Assembly: GCA_002290555.1 (NCBI GenBank)
Contig: NEUK01000067.1
Location: 1-43,171, forward strand
DNA length: 43,171 nucleotides
Direction of reading: 5' to 3'
Origin: Spartobacteria bacterium AMD-G4
Lineage (GTDB): Bacteria > Verrucomicrobiota > Verrucomicrobiia > Chthoniobacterales > Terrimicrobiaceae
The notes under the pieces were generated by a model. It saw only the letters and a list, made by a program, of their open reading frames with translations. It made no database searches and had not been told where the DNA came from. The position numbers were made by a program, and so were the translations under genes. Below are positions 23,459 to 43,011 of this stretch, one piece after another (positions within the stretch are counted from its first letter, which is position 1; every line of letters begins with the position of its first letter).

Positions 23459-25951
23459 TCAGGGCTTTTTTGTGATTCGCGTGAATCCACAGCGCGTAGC
23501 CGCATTTTCAACCAGATCGGCAACCCGGCGTTGAAGCCTGTGGGCGCGCCGGAGGAGGATCAGCACAAAAATGCCGTAGGGAACAAAGGGCCACCAGTGC
23601 GCGTCCGGGACGAGCAGCTGATGATATGCCAGCACGGTCAGGAGAATAAAATTCAACAAGAGGGTCGTGGCGACCATACGAAGCTTGAGATGCACACGGG
23701 TGAGGCATTTCGGCCCGCCATGGTATTCCGTGACCGAACGCATTTGGATGCCCCACCAGAAGCTGCCATAGACCTGCGTGTCCCAGTTTTTCCAACCTGT
23801 GTCGATGGAGTAGTTCCAGCCCTCGCTCTCGAGTGCGCTGATCGTTTCCTTGAGCAAGAGTTCGCGCCCGTGCCCGTTTTCACTCCAGAACCGGAGGTTG
23901 CTCTTGCTGCCGCGTGAGCGTTTGAAGTTTTTCTCCTGTGTGGCGATGACGGCTGGCGGGGTGCGCTTGAACTTGAGCCAAGTGAAATACCGGGCCCATC
24001 CCCGCACGAGCGGTTGTGCGAGCGCGAGGAATGCGACGAGCAGGCGGGCGGGCACCGTGTCGTGCTTGGGCTCCAGCCGTGCATGAATCATGTAGGAAAG
24101 AGCGACCAGGAGCGTTCCTCCGAACATCAGGTAGGGAACGATCCGCAGAAAGGGGACCGGTATCGATGCCGCAAAAACCAATGTGGTGAGGGCTACCCAC
24201 TCGATGCTGCTGAGATAGGCGGCGACATCGGACTGCGGGGTCGGGTAGATGGATTGAAAAAGCCCCTCGCCGAAGACGCCATGATAGATGACCGGCTTGT
24301 TGATGAGCCAGGTGAAGCGGGGTGCGCCGTAGATCTGGCCTTTCCACTTTGCCGTGCCGGTGGGGCCGAAGAAGATGAGATGCTGGAAGCGCAACATGGA
24401 CTCCGCCTCGCCATAGCCTTCCTGTTGTTTCCTGAAGGCTTGCAAAGTGAAGCGCCTGTAGTGCCAAACGATGGCCGCAGGGCTGAAGGCGATCACCCCA
24501 CCGCTCTGCTGAAGGCGCCAGCAGAAGTCCACGTCATCGCCTGCCTTGCGGTATTCGGGGTCGAAGCCGCCGACTTGGTTGAATGCCCAGCGGTGGAAGG
24601 CCATGTTACAGCCGGGAATGTGCTCGGCGACGACATCGGTGAGCAGGACATGGCTCGGGCCTCCGGGTGCCGCTGCTACGCAAGCTTGGACCCAATTTTC
24701 CGCAGGGGGCGAAATGTTTGGCCCGCCCACCCCGGCGAAGTCGCCGCTCAGCAGGGTGCCGAGGAGGTAGTAGAGCCAGTCGGGGTCGGCCATGCAGTCG
24801 CTGTCCGTGTAAACAATCACATCCCCCGTCGATTCGTGGGCTCCGACATTGCGCGCGAAGCTGAGGCCCTTGTTTTCCTGACGAATGTTTTTGATCCAGG
24901 GATGCCGTGCCGCAATTTCTTGCGTGTCATCCTTGGAGCCGTCATCGACGAGGACGACTTCGTAGTTTGGATAATTGATATCCCTCAGCGAAGTGAGGCA
25001 GCGGTCGAGTGTCTTGCCGCCGTTGTAGGAGCAGACGATCACTGAGGTTTTCGGATATTCTCGCAGTTTGACGCGCGAGGTCATGGAGCCCTCGCCGAAG
25101 AAAAGGCTCTTTACGGTTTCGAACGCTGGCTTTTTTGTGCGGTCGCGCCGCACCAGTCCGAAGGCCCAGTCCAAAATCTCCTGCCCGCCGCGGAACCACT
25201 CGTCCGTCCATGCATAGACAATGGTGCCTGCGAGGCCGCCGCGAACGACGCTTTCGATGTGCCAGCGCAGCATTTCCGCCTGCTCTTCCTCGGGGTGCCG
25301 GATGGTGTCCATGCCGAATTCGCCAAGGATGAGCGGCTTGTCGTCGGCCAGATTTTGAAGCCTCGCCAGGTAGCGATCGAAGTCATCCTGGCGGTGCAGG
25401 TAGACATTGAATGTCACAAAGTCGCTGTTCTGCGGGAGGAGATACTCGGTCGGAGGATAGCTGGCGTAGGAAAAAAGGGCGCGTGGGTCTTCCGCGCGGC
25501 CGATGTTGATCAGTTGCTCGACAAACTCCGTGACTTCCCGCGCTCCCAGCCAACGCACCATCGTCGTCGGGATTTCATTGCCGACCAGATAGCCGAAGAC
25601 CGCAGGATGGCCTGCGTTTTTTTTAACCCCGTCGCGAACGGCTTTCTTTGCCTCGTTGCGGATTTTCGGGTTGTTGAGAAATTCCAAATGCTCGGCCCAT
25701 GGAATCGAGATGAGCGCCCGAATGCCTCGCGATGCGCACAGGTCCAGAAACCAGCGAGGCGGCACATAGTAGATGCGGACGAGATTCACCCCGGCTTCGA
25801 CCATCATGTCGAAATCCTTGGCCGCCGCCTCGGGAGTCCCGAAGTAGTCGTCTTGGGCGTCGGGCGCGAAAGGGCCGTAGGTCACGCCTTTGATAAAAAA
25901 CTTTTTATCTCCCTCGAAGAAAAACTTGGCGCGCACGCGCACGGGCTGCAT
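23459..25951 (-). CDS. Glycoside hydrolase (clan A TIM barrel) fused to family 2 glycosyltransferase, membrane protein
   Basis: This is an 830-residue protein from the ATG at 25951; a TTG at 25987 would add 12 residues. Residues 1 to about 290 form a clan-A glycosidase-like barrel: FFIKGVTYGPF, GVNLVRIYYVPP, acid/base-type Asn-Glu in YLVGNEIPT, nucleophile-type Glu in LILGEFGMD, and IVYAWTDEWF. Residues about 300-550 are a GT2 domain: SVIVCSYNGGKTLDRCL, VLVDDGSKDDT, the DxD-type YTDSDC, AEHIPGCNMAFHR and a GDDVDFCWRLQQSGG acceptor motif. Membrane helices lie near residues 590-660 and again near 755-800. It probably makes and trims or transglycosylates an exported glycan, but the product is unknown. 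It is 78 bp after dsbD in the same run. Confidence 0.8.
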   Translation of the reverse strand: MQPVRVRAKFFFEGDKKFFIKGVTYGPFAPDAQDDYFGTPEAAAKDFDMMVEAGVNLVRIYYVPPRWFLDLCASRGIRALISIPWAEHLEFLNNPKIRNEAKKAVRDGVKKNAGHPAVFGYLVGNEIPTTMVRWLGAREVTEFVEQLINIGRAEDPRALFSYASYPPTEYLLPQNSDFVTFNVYLHRQDDFDRYLARLQNLADDKPLILGEFGMDTIRHPEEEQAEMLRWHIESVVRGGLAGTIVYAWTDEWFRGGQEILDWAFGLVRRDRTKKPAFETVKSLFFGEGSMTSRVKLREYPKTSVIVCSYNGGKTLDRCLTSLRDINYPNYEVVLVDDGSKDDTQEIAARHPWIKNIRQENKGLSFARNVGAHESTGDVIVYTDSDCMADPDWLYYLLGTLLSGDFAGVGGPNISPPAENWVQACVAAAPGGPSHVLLTDVVAEHIPGCNMAFHRWAFNQVGGFDPEYRKAGDDVDFCWRLQQSGGVIAFSPAAIVWHYRRFTLQAFRKQQEGYGEAESMLRFQHLIFFGPTGTAKWKGQIYGAPRFTWLINKPVIYHGVFGEGLFQSIYPTPQSDVAAYLSSIEWVALTTLVFAASIPVPFLRIVPYLMFGGTLLVALSYMIHARLEPKHDTVPARLLVAFLALAQPLVRGWARYFTWLKFKRTPPAVIATQEKNFKRSRGSKSNLRFWSENGHGRELLLKETISALESEGWNYSIDTGWKNWDTQVYGSFWWGIQMRSVTEYHGGPKCLTRVHLKLRMVATTLLLNFILLTVLAYHQLLVPDAHWWPFVPYGIFVLILLRRAHRLQRRVADLVENAATRCGFTRITKKP

Positions 25952-26029
25952 CTCAGTCACGCGGCTTGGTATAAATTGACCCTCCAAAAAGGCGAGCGTG
26001 TATTTTTTGGGAAGGTTGAGTCGGTGCGA

Positions 26030-31901: not shown

Positions 31902-32309
31902 TTACCAACCATCCAATTCCTGAGCCGGTTTCAACACGGGCAAACCCAGGATTTCGTCGAAATGGGCATCATCTGTCAGCACAGCAGCCCCGAGTGTTTT
32001 GGCGCAAGCGGCTATCAGGATATCCTGCGCTGGAAGTGTGACGCCGCAACGATCGAGTGTCCATGCGAGCGATGTGGCCTCTTCCCAGATTGTATTCGAG
32101 GTCGGGACATTGATGAGAACATTGAAAAACGCTCCCAACGATCGGCGCGTTTTTTCAACCTTGAGTCCGCGCTCGACCTCGAGTCGCACCATACCGCATG
32201 TGGCGAGGTCTCCCTCTCCGATCCAATCCCCAAGCACCTTCACGGGATCCATGCTGCGACGCAGCAGGCCGATGTAGACATTACTGTCCACGAGAACACT
32301 AACGCCCAT
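31902..32309 (-). CDS. vapC: VapC-type PIN-domain toxin (ribonuclease)
   Basis: This 135-residue PIN-domain protein has the four acidic residues of the active site: Asp8 in LVDSNVYIGLL, Glu44 in VRLEVERGL, Asp96 in LPAQDILIAA, and Asp113/Asp114 in LTDDAHFDEI. PIN toxins cleave specific RNAs and are neutralised by a VapB partner. Its start overlaps the antitoxin gene by 11 bp, the classical antitoxin-first arrangement. Nothing appears truncated. Confidence 0.88.
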   Translation of the reverse strand: MGVSVLVDSNVYIGLLRRSMDPVKVLGDWIGEGDLATCGMVRLEVERGLKVEKTRRSLGAFFNVLINVPTSNTIWEEATSLAWTLDRCGVTLPAQDILIAACAKTLGAAVLTDDAHFDEILGLPVLKPAQELDGW

Positions 32310-32556
32310 GGGATTTATTGGATGAACGGTTGGGGGATTCGGCGACTCTCATGCTCATGACATCGTAGTCGGGGTCCACGGCATTTTTTAACTCTTCAGG
32401 TGTGCACCCCATTCCAGCCTTCACGACCTCCTTGAACCTGGCTTTTCTGTCCATCTCCCTAAGGGCCATTTCCACGGCCTCCGTCTTGCTGGTGCAGCCG
32501 AAATTTTCGACCACCCTGTCGAGCAACTCTTCATCAATATGCATTGTCATCTTCAT
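32299..32556 (-). CDS. vapB: VapB-type antitoxin
   Basis: This is an 85-residue protein from the ATG at 32556 (MKMTMHIDEELLDRVVENFG); further ATGs at 32550 and 32544 are possible starts. The N-terminus resembles the short DNA-binding region of VapB antitoxins of the type followed by TKTEAVEMALREMDRKARFKEV. The C-terminal part, rich in charged and polar residues, should bind the VapC active site. A 27-bp palindrome covers the start codon and is the likely autoregulatory operator. It directly follows the two-polymerase gene on the same strand. Confidence 0.82.
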   Translation of the reverse strand: MKMTMHIDEELLDRVVENFGCTSKTEAVEMALREMDRKARFKEVVKAGMGCTPEELKNAVDPDYDVMSMRVAESPNRSSNKSHGR

Positions 32557-32578
32557 GCCATACTCGGTATGGCATGAA
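32552..32578. promoter_or_regulatory. Operator-like palindrome of vapBC
   Basis: TTCATGCCATAC-TCG-GTATGGCATGAA is a perfect inverted repeat with 12-bp arms. It overlaps the vapB start codon and the presumed -10 region, which is where a VapB-VapC complex would block transcription. Confidence 0.8.
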
Positions 32579-32592
32579 TCGTCCCTTGTCAA
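32564..32592 (-). promoter_or_regulatory. Candidate vapBC promoter
   Basis: On the minus strand a perfect TTGACA (32592-32587) is followed after 17 bases by the weak -10 TACCGA (32569-32564). The -35 overlaps the stop codon of the upstream polymerase gene. Transcription would start about at the vapB ATG, so the message would be nearly leaderless. Confidence 0.45.
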
Positions 32593-35500
32593 GCAGAGGT
32601 TCGTTTTTTTCTTGGCCGATGCACCGTTTCGACCCGCAGAGTGTGTCCTGATGCGCCTTCGAAGGGCACGACCGTGCCTGTGACTTCGAGCACAGGATGC
32701 TGGATCGTTTCCAAACCGAATCGCGCAAACGCGCGGGCGAACATTTCCGTTTCGATGAGCCCAGAGCGGTCACAGAGCGTCATGAATTTCATGAGTTCCC
32801 CGTTGGATTGGTGGTGAGTGCGGTCCGCGACGACAAGACCACAGAGTGTGACGCGTTGGCCGATGCACTTGCCCAAGCGGGACACCGGGCAATAGGTCTC
32901 CCACGCGACTTCCGCCCACAGATCAAGCGGATGGGAGGATACGGTGAAGCCGAGGAGATCGAGTTCGTCGCGGAGGCGTTCGGGCAGCGGAGTGGCGCGT
33001 GTGGATTCGTGTTTTTGTGTCATGGTGAACATGGAGTTCCCGTTCTGAGCGAGTTGACGGATTGTCCATACCGCCTCGGTGCGGGATCCGATGAGCGAAT
33101 CGAGCGCGCCAGCCCGCAGAAGAAGGTGCATAGAGGCTTCGCCCGCCGAGGTCCGCACAAAAAAATCTTCGAGGGATTTGAATGGCCCTTGTTGAAGTTC
33201 GATGGAGATTCGTTTCAAAAGAGCCTCAGGAAAGCCGCTGATCATTTCCAGTGGCACACGGATGAGATTTTTCCTCTCCACAAAAAATCCTCCGCGCGAT
33301 GCGTTGACATCCGGCGAGAGGAATCCGATGCCGAGCCTGCGGCATTCGAGCGAGTAGAGGAGGCGGGAATAGAATCCCTTGCCATGGGTAAGAACGGAGG
33401 CGAGGAACTCGGCCGGATGGTGCCTCTTCAGGCATGCGGCCTGCCAGGCCTCGAGGGCGTAGGCAGTCGAGTGGGCGCGGCAGAAGGCGTAGCCGCGGAA
33501 CATGTGCACGAGCGCCCAGACTGCGGCCGTCTCCGCCTTGCTGCGCCCATTGCAGCGGGCGTATTCTTCAAACTCGAGGCGCATTTTTTCGACTTCGGCG
33601 TCGCGCATTTTCACCAGTGCCCGCCGAAGGATATCCGCCCTTCCCGGCGGCATGGCTGCAAAGGCTTCAGCGATTTGAAGGATGTGTTCCTCGTAGGCGA
33701 TAACGCCATGCGTGCTCCTCAAGACAGGCTCCAGGGAAGGGTGGGGGTATTCGGGCTTTTCGAGCCCCAAGGCCCGGCGGGCAAATGTGGATTTGCGGAG
33801 CGTATTCGCAGCTCCTGGGCGGATCACCGATACAATGGCAACCAATGAGTCGATGTTGCGGCAGTTGCACATTTTCGCCAGATTCGTCATGGCCGGGCTC
33901 TCGATGTGGTGCACGCCCCGGGCGTTGCCAGTGGCGATCATTTCCCATACGGAGTTGTCATTCCAAGGGCCCGCGAAGCTGGATGATATTTCGATGCCGC
34001 GCGAGGCGAGTTCGGCACGGGCGTCTCGGAGAACGGAAAGTCCGCCCTGCGCAAGGATGTCGAGTTTCACCAAGCCGACATCTTCCACGGCGTTCATATC
34101 AAAATGCGTGGTTGGCCAGCCTTTGCTGCTCTGGAAGGTGGGAGTGAAGTCGTGGATCGGACGCCTTGAAAGAACGAGTCCGCACGGATGCATTTTGGCG
34201 TGGCGGGGCAGACCCTCCAAGCGCGCGGCGAGTTTGATCGCAGTGAGGGCGGGCTCCTCATCAAAGAGCCCCTGCGCCTTCGCGGTGGCGGCCGCATTTT
34301 CTGCATCGCCCGCTTTGGCCAGCCAGGGAAAATGCTCCGTCAAGCGCCGCACGAGCCGATCTGGCATGCCAAGGACCTTGCCGATTTCGGCGACAGCGGA
34401 GCGCGCATGGAAGGTATTGAACCCGCCCACCACCGCAACATGGCCTGGCTTGTGCAGACGGAAGACCTTTTCGACAACCGCATCCTTCCTGTCGTGGGGA
34501 AAATCCAAATCGATGTCGGGGAGTTTTTTCAACGCCATGCGGTCTCGGTTCAGGAAGCGCTGGAAATACAGCTCAAAGCGCACTGGGCAGACATCGCTGA
34601 TCCCCAGACAAAAGCAGACCAGCGAGTCGGCGGCGCTCCCGCGTGTGATCCAATCGATGCCGTCGCGGCGACAGTGCTGGAGAAGCTCCCAGACTGTGAG
34701 AAAATATTCCTCATAGCCGACTTCGGCGATCATCTGCAGCTCGGTGTCGAGCTGCGACCGGTGGTGTGCGGCCTGCGCTCCGTAGCGCTCCGTAAGCCCC
34801 TGCACGGCGAGGCGTGCAAGAAACTCGCGGGGCGTGCAAGCCTCGGGAGGATCAAAGCGGGGAAAGGAGAGCTCCCCGAATTCAAACGCGAAGCCGCATT
34901 CCCCGGCGATCCGCTCTTCATCCCTACAGGTATCTGGAATGAAGACGGCATCCTTCGATTTGCCGGGGTGTTCCTCATTCAGCAGAGTGAGGGTGCGTAT
35001 GCTTTCCACAATGCGCAGGTGCAGGAGATCCCCTTCGTTCTCACAACGGATGGGCGGCGCGCCGTTTTCGGATGCGATAAGACCGTCCCGGTGTTGCATC
35101 CAGAAGTCGCGGGTTATTTTCGGCTCCGAGAGCAGGCGGCAGAGATTTTCGTATCCTCTCCGGTCTTTTGCATAGAGGCGGCGTAGACGGCTGTTCACGC
35201 TCAGTTCCGCACCGATGATGGGTTTGAGGCCCATGGCCTTGGCGGCTTGGAAAAACGGCACGGCGGCATGGAGGTTTGGGTCGCAGATTCCTACAGCCTT
35301 GCACCCCGCCTCTGCGGCGATTTCAACAATGCGCCCGGGCGTAAGCAGCGATTCCATGAAGCTGTAGCAGGAGCGGAAATGCAGGATGGCTGTCGGTGCT
35401 TGCACGGCTCGTTTGATCGCAACCGGCGGTGGTTTTTTTGTATCGCCCCGCGCGCTTCGGCTTTCGCGCAGCCAGAGGTCATGCCCGCGCAGGATGGCTT

Positions 35501-36617
35501 CGCTGCCGTGGCGGGATCGGATTTCATCCACCGCTTTGGCCGCCCGGTGGAGCGTGGCGGAATTCTGTGTCGGGGGTATGAGTGCCAATTCCGTGAAGAA
35601 GGCGCCTTTGTAGAGATTCGACAGCTTCAGCGAAACAAGACGCAGGCTCACGCGGCGCTCCCAGGCTTTCTTCAGAAGCGTAGAAATGACGCCATAGGTA
35701 GTCGTCTCCAAGTCGGTCGGTTCATCCAAGCTGAAACTCCGCAGGCACTCCTCGAAATCATTGTATCGCACCCGCACCGAAATAGTCCGCGCCGCCTGCC
35801 CCTCTGCGCGGGCCTTGGCAAAGAGCCGGTCGGCCATCGAGCGCAGCACGGCGAGAACAAATACCTCGTCCGCCGTGTCAGCCTCGAAGGTCTGTTGCTC
35901 TGAGTAGGATTTTGCCGCAGGCGCCTCCGCCACCACCGGGCGCTCGTCTATGCCATTGGCGAACTCCCAAAGCGTGTGCGCGTTTTTGCCTGCAAAAAGC
36001 GAGAGCTGCTCTGGCGGCGTGCGTGCGATCTGGCCGATGAGCGGGAGACCCGCCCGGCTCAGTGTGGCAGCGAGTTCGGGGCCGATGCCGGGAAGCCATT
36101 TGTTTTCGAGGGGGGCAAGAAATTCGGCCTCCCGCCCAGCTGCGATCTGTGTGAGGGCATCCGGTTTTTTCCATTTGCTCGCGACTTGCGAGACCAGTTT
36201 ATTCGAGGCTACCCCCTCGGAGAGCGTGATGCGGAGTGTCTCGCGCACGGCCTTGCGGATGGATTCCGCGATGTCTTGCGGCGTTTTTTTGGTGTTTCCT
36301 TGCAGATCCGCATAGCCTTCATCGATCGATCCCACTTCAACCACCGGCGTGAAATCATAGGCGTAGCTGAACATCATGCGCGAGAAATGCTCGTATTTCT
36401 CGAAATCCCCAGGCACTACGACCAACCTCGGACACAACCTCCTCGCCTGCGCCATCGGCATCGCCGAAGTGATACCATGCCGCCGCGCCTCATACGAAGC
36501 CGATGCCACCACTCCCCGAGCCGAACCTCCCACCGCCACCGCCTTGCCCCGCAGGCGCGCATCGGCAGCTTGTTCGACCGAGGCAAAAAACGCATCGGCA
36601 TCGAGGTGGAGTATCAT
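32589..36617 (-). CDS. Fused Y-family (DinB-like) and C-family (DnaE2/ImuC-like) DNA polymerase
   Basis: This is a 1342-residue protein from the ATG at 36617; a TTG at 36653 is less likely because the Y-family fold starts MILHLDADAFFASVEQ. Residues 1-385 are a full Y-family polymerase: Asp6 and steric-gate Phe11, Asp99-Glu100 in GSIDEGYAD, a helix-hairpin-helix near WLPGIGPELAATLS, and a little-finger domain to about 385. A linker rich in Lys and Pro (386-408) leads to a C-family polymerase: degenerate PHP domain (409-590), palm with Asp701 and Asp703 in LPDIDLDF, third Asp853 in GLVKLDILAQGG, DnaE2-like TFHARSAVAEIGKVLG and GFYSRLLYSLECRRLG, and an OB fold at about 1254-1335. All catalytic acids of both polymerases are visible. 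It is probably a translesion enzyme under SOS control. No imuA, imuB or lexA is in view. Confidence 0.9.
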   Translation of the reverse strand: MILHLDADAFFASVEQAADARLRGKAVAVGGSARGVVASASYEARRHGITSAMPMAQARRLCPRLVVVPGDFEKYEHFSRMMFSYAYDFTPVVEVGSIDEGYADLQGNTKKTPQDIAESIRKAVRETLRITLSEGVASNKLVSQVASKWKKPDALTQIAAGREAEFLAPLENKWLPGIGPELAATLSRAGLPLIGQIARTPPEQLSLFAGKNAHTLWEFANGIDERPVVAEAPAAKSYSEQQTFEADTADEVFVLAVLRSMADRLFAKARAEGQAARTISVRVRYNDFEECLRSFSLDEPTDLETTTYGVISTLLKKAWERRVSLRLVSLKLSNLYKGAFFTELALIPPTQNSATLHRAAKAVDEIRSRHGSEAILRGHDLWLRESRSARGDTKKPPPVAIKRAVQAPTAILHFRSCYSFMESLLTPGRIVEIAAEAGCKAVGICDPNLHAAVPFFQAAKAMGLKPIIGAELSVNSRLRRLYAKDRRGYENLCRLLSEPKITRDFWMQHRDGLIASENGAPPIRCENEGDLLHLRIVESIRTLTLLNEEHPGKSKDAVFIPDTCRDEERIAGECGFAFEFGELSFPRFDPPEACTPREFLARLAVQGLTERYGAQAAHHRSQLDTELQMIAEVGYEEYFLTVWELLQHCRRDGIDWITRGSAADSLVCFCLGISDVCPVRFELYFQRFLNRDRMALKKLPDIDLDFPHDRKDAVVEKVFRLHKPGHVAVVGGFNTFHARSAVAEIGKVLGMPDRLVRRLTEHFPWLAKAGDAENAAATAKAQGLFDEEPALTAIKLAARLEGLPRHAKMHPCGLVLSRRPIHDFTPTFQSSKGWPTTHFDMNAVEDVGLVKLDILAQGGLSVLRDARAELASRGIEISSSFAGPWNDNSVWEMIATGNARGVHHIESPAMTNLAKMCNCRNIDSLVAIVSVIRPGAANTLRKSTFARRALGLEKPEYPHPSLEPVLRSTHGVIAYEEHILQIAEAFAAMPPGRADILRRALVKMRDAEVEKMRLEFEEYARCNGRSKAETAAVWALVHMFRGYAFCRAHSTAYALEAWQAACLKRHHPAEFLASVLTHGKGFYSRLLYSLECRRLGIGFLSPDVNASRGGFFVERKNLIRVPLEMISGFPEALLKRISIELQQGPFKSLEDFFVRTSAGEASMHLLLRAGALDSLIGSRTEAVWTIRQLAQNGNSMFTMTQKHESTRATPLPERLRDELDLLGFTVSSHPLDLWAEVAWETYCPVSRLGKCIGQRVTLCGLVVADRTHHQSNGELMKFMTLCDRSGLIETEMFARAFARFGLETIQHPVLEVTGTVVPFEGASGHTLRVETVHRPRKKRTSA

Positions 36618-36635
36618 GGTGTTCAAATGAACACC
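36618..36635. promoter_or_regulatory. LexA-type (SOS box) operator of the polymerase fusion gene
   Basis: GGTGTTCA-AA-TGAACACC is a perfect 18-bp palindrome ending directly at the start codon. Its core is TGTTC-AAAT-GAACA, the TGTTC-N4-GAACA form I recall being reported as the LexA motif of Verrucomicrobia. Placement on a DNA-damage polymerase gene fits SOS repression. No lexA gene is in the window to confirm the cognate repressor. Confidence 0.72.
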
Positions 36636-37933: not shown

Positions 37934-38439
37934 GCCATAAAACTCCATCCATAAACAAAAATTTGCCTGTAAATGAAAGAGTTATATGAATACTGAAATC
38001 GATCTATGTTCCATTCTGGAGCCATTTCCTCCTTCAAATAAATGCGCTCAGATCGCCAAGGAATGGCTTGACAAAGGCCTCGCCAAATGTCACGAAATCG
38101 CCGTGCTCTACCCCTCCAGTCGCAACCCACCAGATTGGATCGGAAAAATCCACGGCATCTCCTTCTTCACCCCCACCGGAACGCCGCCGTCCTCGTCGGC
38201 CCCCAATTCACCCACGAATTCTGACTTCAATCCAGAATCCAAAATCCAACATTTTTTCCTTCATACTTTCCTCCGCCTCTCGCTACGAAAAATCCTGCGA
38301 ACGCGACCACTCCATCGCCTACGGTCTGGAATTTCTCTGCAAAGTCGAGCCCCCGCAGCCGAGGAAGAGAGCAGCCAAAAAACTCGCTGTGGAAAAATCC
38401 AAGGATGAGGAACCCGAATTGATTGAGGAGAGTCGAAAT
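37934..38439 (+). other. Spacer with degraded open frames before the AlbA_2-type gene
   Basis: Two overlapping open frames cross this 506-bp stretch (37986-38408, and an upstream extension of the 38440 gene) but neither shows a recognisable domain. Part of the extension just before 38440 (charged, AAKKLAVEKSKDEEPELIEE) has coding-like composition and may be a gene end. A copy of the AATCCAAAATCC-type repeat and a following pyrimidine-rich stretch occur at about 38228-38275. Confidence 0.4.
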
Positions 38440-39906
38440 ATGACAGACCTGAGTCTTCAAAGCCGCCTCGAGAGCCTTCTCGCCCTGCCACAGGAAACGG
38501 AATGGGTGGAGTTCAAGCACAACTACACAGACCCGGAGCAGATTGGTGAGTATCTCTCCGCATTGTCCAACTCGGCCGCGCTGCATGATCAAACCCGCGC
38601 TTGGCTGATCTGGGGCGTCCGGGACGGGGACCATGCCGTGGTCGGGACAACATTCCGCCCCCGCCACGAAAAAGTTGGCAACCAGAATCTCGAAGGCTGG
38701 TTGACAACCAAGACCTACCCTCGTGTTGACTTCCGAATTCATGAGTTCGAATACCAAGGTGGCCTTCCCCTGGTCATTTTTGAAATCATTCCGTGTTGGC
38801 ACACCCCTGTCCGATTCGGCGATCACGAATTCATTCGCGTGGGTTCGACCAAACGCCGGCTCAAGGACTACCCGGAAAAGGAACGGGAGCTGTGGCAAAG
38901 ATTTCGCCGCACTCCTTTCGAGCGAACGGTGTGCACGGACAGCGCGAACGGTTCACGCGTGTTGGAGCTCATTGATTACCCAGCGCTCTTTGAAGTGTTG
39001 GCACTACCGCTGCCCGAAGGTCGCGCAGGTATTCTGGAGAAGATGGTTCAGGAGAAGTTTATTATGGAAGCGGGGCAGGATTGTTTTCACATCACGAACC
39101 TGGGGGCGATTCTCTTCGCTAAGAAGCTGGCCGATTTTGATTCGCTTTCCCGCAAGGCTGTCCGGATCATTTCCTACAAGGGTCGCAACCGGGTTCAAAC
39201 GATCCGTGAACTGCCCCTGGCGAAATCCAAAGGGTATGCGAATGGATTCGAAGAAGTGATCCGCTACATCAACGAACAACTCCCGGCCAACGAAGTGCTG
39301 GGGCAGGCATTCCGGCGTGAGGTTCGTATGTATCCTGAGGTCGCTATCCGTGAGTTGGTCGCCAATGCGCTGATCCACCAAGATTTTTCCGTCGGTGGAG
39401 ACGGTCCCAAGGTAGAGATTTTCGAGGATCGTGTCGAAATCACCAATCCGGGTCGCCCCCTGATCGATACGCTTCGCTTCTTGGACGAGCCGCCACAGTC
39501 CCGCAACGAGCATCTGGCCGCGATGATGCGGCGCATGAATATTTGCGAGGAGCGAGGCTCCGGAATCGACAAAGTTCTGTTTGCAATAGAATTACACCAG
39601 CTTCCGGCACCGGAATTTCGCGTCACCGATCATCACACCGTTGCCATCCTCTATTCCGCCATGCCGCCGGCACGCATGGATAAACCCGACCGCATCCGCG
39701 CCTGCTACCTGCACGCTTGCTTGCGACGGGTCTCCAACGACACGATGACCAACGAGACCCTACGAACCCGCTTGGGATTGGAGGAAAAGGACTACCCGAA
39801 AGCCTCGAGGATCATCCGTGAGGCGATCGAGGTCGGTTTGGTCAAACCGCACGATCCTGAAAACCGCAGCCGGAAACACGCCAAATACTTGCCTTTCTGG
39901 GCCTGA
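38440..39906 (+). CDS. AlbA_2 (Schlafen-type) domain ATP-binding protein
   Basis: This is a 488-residue protein from the ATG giving MTDLSLQSRLESLLALPQET; an upstream extension of 124 residues is low-complexity and crosses repeat DNA, so it is not used. The AlbA_2 domain lies near residues 15-150 (EWVEFKHNYTDPEQIGEYLSAL, AWLIWGVRDGDHAVVGT, FEIIPCWHTPVRF, FIRVGSTKRRL). A histidine-kinase-like ATPase domain follows near 300-380, with the N-box ELVANALIHQDFS and VEITNPGRP. A C-terminal winged-helix-like segment ends the protein. Proteins of this build are called putative transcriptional regulators and are common in phage-defence and mobile regions; the biochemical role is unsettled. It stands alone on this strand. 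Confidence 0.8.
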   Translation: MTDLSLQSRLESLLALPQETEWVEFKHNYTDPEQIGEYLSALSNSAALHDQTRAWLIWGVRDGDHAVVGTTFRPRHEKVGNQNLEGWLTTKTYPRVDFRIHEFEYQGGLPLVIFEIIPCWHTPVRFGDHEFIRVGSTKRRLKDYPEKERELWQRFRRTPFERTVCTDSANGSRVLELIDYPALFEVLALPLPEGRAGILEKMVQEKFIMEAGQDCFHITNLGAILFAKKLADFDSLSRKAVRIISYKGRNRVQTIRELPLAKSKGYANGFEEVIRYINEQLPANEVLGQAFRREVRMYPEVAIRELVANALIHQDFSVGGDGPKVEIFEDRVEITNPGRPLIDTLRFLDEPPQSRNEHLAAMMRRMNICEERGSGIDKVLFAIELHQLPAPEFRVTDHHTVAILYSAMPPARMDKPDRIRACYLHACLRRVSNDTMTNETLRTRLGLEEKDYPKASRIIREAIEVGLVKPHDPENRSRKHAKYLPFWA

Positions 39907-40371: not shown

Positions 40372-40415
40372 TATACTCAACATGAGTAGCAGATTATTAA
40401 TTATCAATAATTAAT
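40372..40415 (+). promoter_or_regulatory. Candidate promoter and palindromic operator of the first DUF1016 gene
   Basis: TATACT at 40372-40377 is a good -10 with a poor -35. Downstream, ATTAATTATCAATAATTAAT (40396-40415) is a perfect 20-bp palindrome (9-bp arms, CA centre) whose last two bases are the AT of the start codon. This position fits a repressor site blocking transcription or translation start. Confidence 0.45.
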
Positions 40416-41529
40416 GCCTGACCCCTTTCACACTGAACTCATCCCTTCCGACTATGCGATCTGGCTTACGGAGGTCAAAACCCGCATCCAGTCTGCCCGC
40501 AGTCGCGCCGCTCTGGCCGTGAATTCCGAGGTAGTGCGCCTCTACCACAGCATCGGGCGGGACATTTTGGAGCGCCAAACCCAGCAAGGATGGGGTTCCA
40601 AGGTCATACCTAGGATCGCCGCCGACCTGAAAGACGCATTTCCGGATATCAAGGGCTTCTCTGCCAGCAACATCAAATACATGCGCTTCTTCGCGGAGCA
40701 CTGTCCGGTTCCCGCTATTGCGCAGCAGCTTGGTGAGCCATCGGCCGAGGCACCCAGCCCGCGCTTTGGTCAGCAGCCTGCTGACCAATTGCCCTGGTTC
40801 CACATTGTCATCCTGCTCACCAAGGCAAAACCCACGGATCGCGAGTGGTATGCCGTTCATGCAGTAGCTGGCGGCTGGTCGAGGGATACCCTGAAACGCA
40901 ACATAGAAACCCGCCTTAAGGATCGCCAAGGGGCAGCCATCACCAATTTCGCGGCTCTTCTCCCGCCACCCCATTCCGCTCTTGCTCAGGAAACCCTGAA
41001 AGATCCCTACAACTTCGATTTCCTCGGCCTTGCCGACGATGCCCACGAGCGGGAGATTGAAAACGCCCTCATCCGCCACATCACCCGCTTCCTGCTCGAG
41101 TTGGGCACCGGTTTCGCCTTCGTCGGACGCCAGTTTAGGCTTGAAGTCGGTGGCGACGAGTTCTTCATCGATCTGCTCTTCTACCACACCCGCCTGAAGC
41201 GTTATGTCGTCATCGAACTCAAAGGCTCCGCCTTCAAACCTGAGCATGTCGGCCAACTGAACTTCTACCTCAGCGCCGTAGACTCGCAAATCAAGGGCGA
41301 GGACGACCACCCCACCATTGGACTACTCCTTTGCAAGACCCAGAACCGCATCGTGGCCGAATACGCCCTGCGGGACACCACCAAGCCAATGGGCATTGCC
41401 GAATACCAACTCCTCCAGTCCCTGCCCGAGCCACTTCAAACCAATCTGCCCAGCATCGAAGAACTCGAAGCCGAACTCGCTGCAGATCCTCTCGCCGCCG
41501 TCCCCGTCGGCATCAACTTGCTACCTTAA
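40414..41529 (+). CDS. DUF1016 / YhcG-type PD-(D/E)XK nuclease, first copy
   Basis: This 371-residue protein has the DUF1016 N-terminal helical region (VNSEVVRLYHSIGRDILERQ, GWGSKVIPRIAADLKDAFPD, FSASNIKYMRFFAE) and the C-terminal YhcG-like nuclease domain. GGDEFFIDLLFYHTRLKRYV followed by VIELK carries the Asp and Glu-x-Lys of the PD-(D/E)XK active site. FKPEHVGQLNFYLSAVD and PTIGLLLCKTQN complete the fold. Such proteins are often near restriction-modification and other defence genes, and a nuclease role is inferred from the fold. A second, diverged copy follows at 41902. A palindrome overlaps the start codon. Confidence 0.88.
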   Translation: MPDPFHTELIPSDYAIWLTEVKTRIQSARSRAALAVNSEVVRLYHSIGRDILERQTQQGWGSKVIPRIAADLKDAFPDIKGFSASNIKYMRFFAEHCPVPAIAQQLGEPSAEAPSPRFGQQPADQLPWFHIVILLTKAKPTDREWYAVHAVAGGWSRDTLKRNIETRLKDRQGAAITNFAALLPPPHSALAQETLKDPYNFDFLGLADDAHEREIENALIRHITRFLLELGTGFAFVGRQFRLEVGGDEFFIDLLFYHTRLKRYVVIELKGSAFKPEHVGQLNFYLSAVDSQIKGEDDHPTIGLLLCKTQNRIVAEYALRDTTKPMGIAEYQLLQSLPEPLQTNLPSIEELEAELAADPLAAVPVGINLLP

Positions 41530-41607
41530 AAATCAAGCCTCCTCCTCATCCTGTTAATCCCGTCTTACCTTTGAAAACTTTCCTCCTTCTCACTTCATCC
41601 TTTCCTA

Positions 41608-41638
41608 TCACGCCGGAGCCGCAAAGCGCGTAGGAGGA
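41608..41638 (+). repeat. GC-rich intergenic repeat, copy 2
   Basis: This copy begins TCACGCCGGA and ends GTAGGAGGA. It is separated by 4 bp from copy 3, so the two are nearly tandem. Confidence 0.7.
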
Positions 41639-41642
41639 TGCA

Positions 41643-41673
41643 TCACGCCGGAGTCGCGAAGCGCGTAGGAGGA
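41643..41673 (+). repeat. GC-rich intergenic repeat, copy 3
   Basis: It is nearly identical to copy 2, with two substitutions in the middle (GAGTCGCGAAGCGCG against GAGCCGCAAAGCGCG). Confidence 0.7.
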
Positions 41674-41744
41674 CCGCCACAGCGGCTACACCGCTAATCC
41701 ACCATCCAAAATCCAACATTCAAAATCCAACATTCAAAATCCCC

Positions 41745-41775
41745 AATCGTCGAGAGACCAGAGCCGAGAGTCGAG
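41745..41775 (+). repeat. 31-bp direct repeat left of the second DUF1016 gene
   Basis: The element begins AATCGTCGAGAGACCAGAGC and ends AGAGTCGAG. It is identical over all 31 bases to 43073-43103 and follows an AAAATCC-type tract in both places. Confidence 0.85.
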
Positions 41776-41901
41776 AGTCGAGCGCTACAGCGGTTACGCC
41801 CCTTTCCCACTTCATCCTTCTTCCTTCTTCCTTCTTCCTTCCTACTTCATCTTTTTCTCCACCTGCTGCTATTTGGTGAATAACATGACCGAATCATACC
41901 C

Positions 41902-43011
41902 ATGAGCAAGAAGCCCGCCATTTCCCCCTCAAGCAAGGCGGTAGCCAAGCCCGCGTCCAAAGTTGCGCCACCCGCTGTGCTGTCGACTGGTCCGTTGCTC
42001 ACCGACCTCCGCGACCTCATCGCCGAGGCGCGACAGCAGGTGGCGAGGACGGTGAACACCGGGTTGGTCGTGCTCTACTGGCATGTCGGCAACCGCATCC
42101 GGCGGGATTTGTTGAACGAGAAAAGGGCAGGCTATGGGAAGAAGGTTTTCCAAGATGTCTCCGCTAAATTGGTGGCGGAGTTCGGGCGCGGCTGGGGCCG
42201 GAGGAATCTTGAGCAGATGGTTCGCTTTGCCGAGGTGTTTACGGATTTTGAAATTGCGCAGTCACTGCCTGCGCAATTGAGCTGGACCCACCTCGTTGAA
42301 ATCATCCGAATCGACGATCCTCTCAAGCGCGAGTTCTACACCGAAATGTGCCGGATTGAAAATTGGAGCACGCGCACGCTGGAAGCGAAGATCGCCTCCA
42401 TGCTCTTCGAGCGCACGGCACTCTCGAAAAAGCCGGACCAGCTCATTCGGCAAGAACTTAAAGCGCTGAGGGTTGAAGACAAACTCACCCCCGATCTTGT
42501 TTTCCGCGACCCCTACTTTCTCGATTTTCTCGGGATGAAGGACACCTATGCGGAAAAGGATTTGGAGGCAGCTATCTTGCGCGAGATGGAGGCTTTTATT
42601 CTTGAACTCGGCGTCGGCTTTGCCTTTCTGGAAAGGCAGAAGCGGATCACGGTGGATGGCGTGGATCATTATCTGGATTTACTCTTTTACCATCGGAACC
42701 TGCGGCGGTTGGTGGCGGTGGAACTCAAACTGGGGGACTTCAAACCCGGCGACAAAGGCCAGATGGAACTCTATCTCGGTTGGCTCGACCGATACGAGCG
42801 CAAGGAAGGTGAGGAACCACCCATCGGGCTCATTCTCTGTGCCGGGAAGCGGCAGGAGACAGTGGAACTACTAAACTTAGAGCGCAGCGGCATAAAGGTC
42901 TCAGCGTATTGGACAGAGGCCTTGTCGAAAACCGAGATGGAGCGGAAGCTGCACGAGGCGGTGCTCCACGCCCGCGCCCGCATCAAACTTGACCCGCCCA
43001 AACGCCACTGA
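41902..43011 (+). CDS. DUF1016 / YhcG-type PD-(D/E)XK nuclease, second copy
   Basis: This 369-residue paralogue of the 40414 gene has an extra basic Ser/Ala/Pro-rich N-terminus of about 30 residues. The DUF1016 region reads VNTGLVVLYWHVGNRIRRDL, GKKVFQDVSAKLVAEFGRGW and RRNLEQMVRFAEVF. The nuclease domain shows DGVDHYLDLLFYHRNLRRLV then AVELKLGDFKPGDKGQMELY, with Asp and Glu-x-Lys in place, and PIGLILCAGKRQETVELL. Divergence from the first copy is large, so this is not a recent duplication. The gene is bracketed by 31-bp identical repeats, suggesting it entered or moves as a cassette. No Shine-Dalgarno sequence is seen. Confidence 0.88.
   Translation: MSKKPAISPSSKAVAKPASKVAPPAVLSTGPLLTDLRDLIAEARQQVARTVNTGLVVLYWHVGNRIRRDLLNEKRAGYGKKVFQDVSAKLVAEFGRGWGRRNLEQMVRFAEVFTDFEIAQSLPAQLSWTHLVEIIRIDDPLKREFYTEMCRIENWSTRTLEAKIASMLFERTALSKKPDQLIRQELKALRVEDKLTPDLVFRDPYFLDFLGMKDTYAEKDLEAAILREMEAFILELGVGFAFLERQKRITVDGVDHYLDLLFYHRNLRRLVAVELKLGDFKPGDKGQMELYLGWLDRYERKEGEEPPIGLILCAGKRQETVELLNLERSGIKVSAYWTEALSKTEMERKLHEAVLHARARIKLDPPKRH

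Follow-up and report, generated by a model that had tools for sequence, protein, structure and literature searches.

The contig NEUK01000067.1 of Spartobacteria bacterium AMD-G4 (assembly GCA_002290555.1), analysed over its whole length of 43,171 nt and referred to below as the window, encodes on its minus strand a protein of 1342 amino acids in which a Y-family and a C-family DNA polymerase are joined in one chain. As judged from its domains, residues and relatives, this fusion appears to be the predicted DnaE2B-PolY-RecA mutasome in a one-chain version, and not an ImuB joined to an ImuC. We consider it probable that it serves as a damage-inducible single-chain mutasome, in which translesion synthesis would be gated by RecA and controlled by LexA, with the Y half inserting and the C half extending. 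The features assigned to the gene and to its upstream region are the following.

32589..36617, minus strand: the whole fusion gene (P0001), from the open reading frame (ORF) and Pfam.
35613..36617, minus strand: Y-family polymerase half, residues 1-335 (palm, fingers and thumb plus little finger; D6, D8, D99, E100 and steric-gate F11), from Pfam and fold match.
35475..35549, minus strand: RecA-NT-like motif, residues 357-381, HRAAKAVDEIRSRHGSEAILRGHDL, from alignment and profile search.
35403..35456, minus strand: flexible linker rich in Lys, Pro and Arg, residues 388-405, from model confidence (pLDDT) and alignment.
34938..35390, minus strand: PHP domain, residues ~410-560, with a degenerate metal-site motif, from Pfam.
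32592..34937, minus strand: C-family polymerase core, fingers, HhH and C-terminal OB region, residues 561-1342 (D701, D703, D853), from Pfam and alignment with Taq alpha.
36620..36633, no strand assigned: probable LexA operator (SOS box) TGTTCAAATGAACA, the sole perfect TGTTC-N4-GAACA in the window, directly upstream of the ATG.

The ORF begins with an ATG at 36617 and its stop codon ends at 32589; an in-frame TTG at 36626-36624, three codons upstream of the ATG and within the palindrome of the probable operator, is an alternative start. An earlier note made from the sequence had described a single uninterrupted frame of 1342 codons containing both polymerases, and this was confirmed by ORF analysis and Pfam, on the minus strand. 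Matches far over the cut-offs were obtained with IMS (residues 5-148) and IMS_C (236-335) in the Y half, and with PHP (412-515), DNA_pol3_alpha (599-856), DNA_pol3_finger (860-1023) and HHH_6 (1096-1181) in the C half. The NCBIfam models gave the same division, those of Pol IV falling on the first 380 residues and those of Pol III alpha or error-prone polymerase on the remainder. No tau-binding domain was detected at the C-terminus of the C half, and no proofreading site was detectable in that half. The predicted structure of residues 1-1199 consisted of two folded units, with a mean predicted local distance difference test (pLDDT) score of 81.9 and a predicted template modelling (pTM) score of 0.61. 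In the fold comparison, residues 1-337 matched Pol IV structures (E. coli DinB 4r8u, Z 23.2, 327 aligned residues) and residues 404-1199 matched Pol III alpha structures (best 5lew, Z 42.7, 774 aligned residues). The linker at 388-405, with pLDDT below 50, varied in length and sequence among the fusions. A Y half of residues 1-385 had been proposed earlier; a complete Pol IV-like polymerase is indeed present, at 1-335, and the RecA-NT-like motif at 357-381 had been overlooked.

A frame of this kind could arise from an assembly chimera, a missed stop or a sequencing error, and the window does come from a fragmented assembly (Verrucomicrobiota, 1.8 Mb in 74 contigs, 82% complete, in which DnaE1 and DinB are additionally encoded by genes of their own). 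The recurrence of the fusion refuted this explanation, the probability of which we regard as practically nil. A scan of genome contigs with exact peptides found full-length fusions in five other Verrucomicrobiota/Spartobacteria metagenome-assembled genomes, and in a sixth genome the match spanned residues 2-912. Among the loci fetched, 62 carry a full-length or near-full-length fusion; 46 of them are distinct, and they are spread over roughly two dozen Verrucomicrobiota families. The fusion ORFs measure about 1340-1610 codons from stop to stop, they group together, and they occur in independent assemblies, including the single-contig genome G548 (L104). No stop or frameshift was found at residues 385-410, the place singled out beforehand as decisive. 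Since 46 distinct full-length fusions were recovered, we concluded that the fusion is not an artefact.

Strong homologues (E <= 1e-120) were found in 19 of the 213 genomes of the same order; among genomes sampled more widely, 64 of 384 from the class and 5 of 388 from the phylum as a whole had one. About 14 of the genomes counted belong to family f86, where the two polymerases are encoded by separate genes. Phyla beyond Verrucomicrobiota were sampled through one exact-peptide scan of genome contigs and through plasmids, and the fusion may occur there as well. A mobile or phage origin was also considered and rejected: the plasmid, phage and viral collections searched held no single-chain fusion, and those plasmid matches covering both halves that were opened proved to be separate genes.

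The positions given earlier for Asp6, Asp99-Glu100, Asp701, Asp703 and Asp853 were right. In alignments with PDB entries, D701, D703 and D853 fall on the acidic residues of the PDID and KMD motifs of the Taq alpha subunit. Together with D6, D8, D99 and E100 they are invariant in all 46 distinct fusion proteins, and the steric gate of the Y half (F11 in the window protein) is F or Y in every one. Judged by these conserved residues, both active sites are intact. Both halves are also under purifying selection: in comparisons with L034, L036 and L037, the ratio of nonsynonymous to synonymous substitution rates (dN/dS) was 0.04-0.14 for the Y half and 0.06-0.14 for the C polymerase core. The tail and linker gave 0.16-0.25 in the two closest pairs, above both halves. 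In the PHP metal site, LHFRS and CDPN replace the usual HxH and DHG and the relatives are altered too, a degenerate pattern typical of DnaE2 as a group (PMC3919608).

The RecA-NT-like motif, which sits between the Y half and the linker, has the consensus RLAxxVDxLRxxxGxxxILRGHDL and was found in nearly all fusions, being two or three residues shorter in some families. The genome of the window encodes a RecA, of which the segment used for comparison is KNLDLALQQIEKDYGSEAIRRLG; the RecA-NT region has been described in PMC6511836. When a profile of the motif was searched against all PDB sequences, 10 of the 13 matches were RecA, always at the N-terminal segment of a RecA unit. An inspection by eye of 27 genomes for joint variation between the RecA-NT-like tail and the RecA of the same genome gave no convincing result.

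The ancestry of the two halves was examined with phylogenetic trees. In the tree of 57 C-family sequences, the fusions lie inside the DnaE2 clade (support 100), apart from the DnaE1 of Verrucomicrobiota, and by this placement the C half is of the DnaE2 type and not DnaE1. Replicative DnaE1 identity was ruled out by the tree and by the separate DnaE1 gene in the genome. Within the clade, the fusions form a group with proteins of Bacteroidota and Desulfosarcina (support 97), and the sister of the fusions is an unlinked DnaE2 from G004. The Y-half tree agrees with this, with lower support and long branches. In the Bacteroidota plasmids dnaE follows directly on dinB; the two genes overlap by 4 bp in Adhaeribacter and by 1 bp in Emticicia and are 13 bp apart in Chryseobacterium. 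These pairs adjoin SRAP or LexA-family genes, and their proteins are about 30% identical to the window fusion. Loss of the stop codon at such a junction would yield a fusion. The closest unfused relatives of both halves are the PolY and DnaE2 of family f86 and of G004, which differ from the fusion in being separate genes: in f86 an opposite-strand crcB stands between them (L084:4483-4929), and in G004 they are on different contigs. Family f86 is nested among the fusions in the trees, and a single clade of all fusions was not rejected (approximately unbiased test, p-AU 0.76). The f86 arrangement may thus have arisen by fission or be an ancestral separation.

Among known systems, the closest is the DnaE2B-PolY-RecA module, for which an active PolY and the absence of ImuA and ImuB are predicted, although the PolY partners of DnaE2B include inactivated ones (PMC12926913). 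The fusion shares with the Bacteroidota form of this module an active PolY (activity being a prediction in the fusion) with a RecA-NT motif, the DnaE2 branch, the gene order and SOS-type neighbour genes. The Bacteroidota system consists of two separate proteins, whereas PolY and DnaE2 are one chain here, and for this reason we filed the fusion as a variant of the module. In the known mutasome, an inactive ImuB bridges ImuA and DnaE2 (PMC12926913). That ImuA-ImuB-DnaE2 system is likewise an SOS-linked cassette with a Y-family member and DnaE2, adjoined by LexA genes in many genomes, but its ImuB is a catalytically dead protein with an ImuB-C domain and ImuA as binding partner, in contrast to the intact Y half of the fusion. 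No ImuB-C beta-barrel was found: there is no extra Pfam domain, and only about 24-30 predicted-disordered residues lie between the RecA-NT-like motif and PHP. An ImuB-ImuC fusion was ruled out by the intact Y site and the lack of ImuB-C. The comparison with ImuB and ImuC made in the earlier note therefore stands as regards a DnaE2-type C half, and fails as regards ImuB-ImuC identity, since the Y half keeps its catalytic residues and has the RecA-NT-like motif, and the C half falls with proteins of the DnaE2B type, whose partners are an active PolY and RecA in genomes lacking ImuA and ImuB. DNA polymerase IV (DinB) has the fold and the catalytic residues of the Y half (E. coli DinB 4r8u matching residues 1-336) and no DnaE2 tether; the Y half differs from it also by the RecA-NT-like tail, which most DinB orthologues do not have (PMC12926913). 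Two close relatives, with genomes 95% and 98% complete, encode no IMS protein besides the fusion. No ImuB was found with the fusion, in a search that did not extend to ImuA: further Y-family proteins number none in G283 and G284, one in G000 and two in G188, none of them examined in detail for ImuB type, and the window's own assembly is 82% complete.

The SOS box, the LexA cassette of the relatives and the split forms had been missed in the earlier note. The assembled genome of the window contains two perfect TGTTC-N4-GAACA sequences, the second one inside an ORF. TGTTC-N4-GAACA is reportedly the LexA motif of Verrucomicrobia. The identical palindrome occupies the same position in five relatives, two of them with diverged flanks, and the motif is also found before recA and before the operon of S24 and fusion genes in G188 and G652. 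In family f59, TACTGAACATTTGAACAGTA is present about 50 nt upstream in place of TGTTC-N4-GAACA. Of the 46 distinct loci, 31 have a LexA/S24 gene upstream of the fusion on the same strand, and three have one on the opposite strand. Among those examined for domains, Pfam detected LexA_DNA_bind together with Peptidase_S24 or, in families f8 and f82, S24 by itself. Because the box abuts the start codon in the window and in relatives, the same box precedes recA in two genomes that carry the fusion and a LexA/S24 gene stands upstream in these 31 loci, SOS (LexA) control of the fusion through the predicted operator is strongly indicated. Read on the plus strand, the palindrome gives a 7-pair stem followed by TTTTTT, and could instead be an intrinsic terminator of that strand. 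We consider this quite improbable: the T-run is lost in L038 and the flanks have diverged in both L037 and L038 with GGTGTTCATTTGAACACC unchanged, and the same motif stands upstream of recA in f8 genomes.

Some further observations were made on the genes next to the fusions. The gene preceding the fusion in family f8 (L005:826-1491; L064; L121) encodes a UmuD-like S24 peptidase in which the LexA DNA-binding domain was not detected; this gene has a perfect SOS box upstream in L005 and L064, and an SRAP gene is located farther upstream in L005 and L121. A DUF72 gene (L045:672-1421) lies directly upstream of the fusion at one f59 locus, and the Desulfosarcina plasmid L138 has the order lexA-DUF72-PolY-DnaE2. 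DUF72 may be a member of such SOS cassettes.

In the mechanism that we propose, LexA would repress the fusion via the box at the start codon, and DNA damage would lead to LexA cleavage and production of the fusion protein. The RecA-NT-like segment between the halves would dock a RecA protomer, and an xELxL-type tail may touch the beta clamp. The Y half would then insert opposite the lesion or beside it, and the DnaE2 half tethered to it would extend the distorted primer end, the damaged strand being handed over within the molecule. We argue for this division of labour because there are two apparently intact sites, one suited to lesion insertion and the other, with no detectable proofreading, to extension. 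Tandem insertion and extension, as suggested in the earlier note, is plausible and favoured by the conservation of both sites. For the stricter claim, a natural two-family single-chain polymerase in which the Y site inserts, the C site extends and the RecA-docking segment between them works as a switch, we put the chances at about even.

Two other explanations of the fused gene were weighed against this mechanism. The chain might be a polyprotein that is cut in the disordered linker, the halves then acting separately as in Bacteroidota. The variability of the linker in length and sequence would fit with this, as would the separate genes of f86 and the peptidase-type genes (S24, SRAP) that adjoin many fusions. 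S24 and SRAP peptidases, however, are self-cleaving and are not known as linker proteases, the linker has no conserved cleavage-like motif, and the fused frame has been retained over about two dozen families; we thus regard a polyprotein as unlikely. We give similarly little credence to the possibility that the Y half is mainly a targeting or regulatory module, an active-looking analogue of ImuB that contacts RecA and the clamp and leaves nearly all synthesis to DnaE2. The inactive, bridging ImuB and the inactivated PolY partners of some DnaE2B proteins (PMC12926913) are precedents for such a role, but the four acidic residues of the Y site are invariant and its steric gate aromatic in 46 of 46 fusions, and dN/dS of the Y half is the lowest or near-lowest.

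Several observations weigh against the RecA-gated, LexA-controlled single-chain mutasome. Single RecA chains matched the motif profile only at E ~0.1 or weaker, the low E-values coming from engineered tandem RecA; because the single-copy match is weak, the motif is called RecA-NT-like. LexA was not found in the window's own assembly (82% complete), possibly due to the incompleteness of the assembly, and recA of the window's genus (L145 and the window genome) is without TGTTC-N4-GAACA, unlike recA of f8. These two findings may point to a rewired SOS regulon in the genus. The fusion gene is patchy and is absent from near-complete genomes of the genus, for example G125. As f86 keeps the halves as separate genes, covalent linkage would not be essential for function. 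Finally, the model, with a pTM of 0.61 and a disordered linker, does not show how the two active sites are placed relative to each other.

Other genes were recognized in the window. Directly downstream of the fusion is a VapBC-like toxin-antitoxin pair (minus strand, 31902-32560), comprising a PIN domain at 31902-32309, closely preceded by a short ORF that resembles an antitoxin. Across the upstream region of the fusion, 38068-39906 encodes a 612-aa Schlafen AlbA_2 plus HATPase_c_4 protein. At 40414-43011, two DUF1016/YhcG PDDEXK-nuclease genes follow one another (40414-41529 and 41902-43011) and seem to be a tandem pair from one family. A minus-strand ORF of 842 aa at 23459-25987 combines a glycoside-hydrolase-like N-terminal part with a family 2 glycosyltransferase.

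The architecture, which was not known to the earlier note as a described one, was likewise not found in our literature search, outside which lay subscription papers, preprints and supplements, and the fused form is absent from the main text of PMC12926913. The combination of DnaE2, active PolY and RecA has already been predicted; what appears undescribed is the joining in one chain, the distribution of this form over Verrucomicrobiota and the SOS cassette that goes with it. As gene fusion is classic evidence of joint function, the fusion supports the prediction of a complex of DnaE2B with an active PolY. A substantial minority of the genomes of one Verrucomicrobiota class carries this gene, which would otherwise be annotated just as DNA polymerase III alpha or DNA polymerase IV. 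It is an open question how translesion polymerases are exchanged at a stalled primer end, and the usual approach has been to study separate proteins that compete for a clamp. A natural fusion, in which the stoichiometry is fixed at 1:1 and each active site can be killed singly, offers a ready test of the intramolecular hand-off of a damaged strand between two polymerases.

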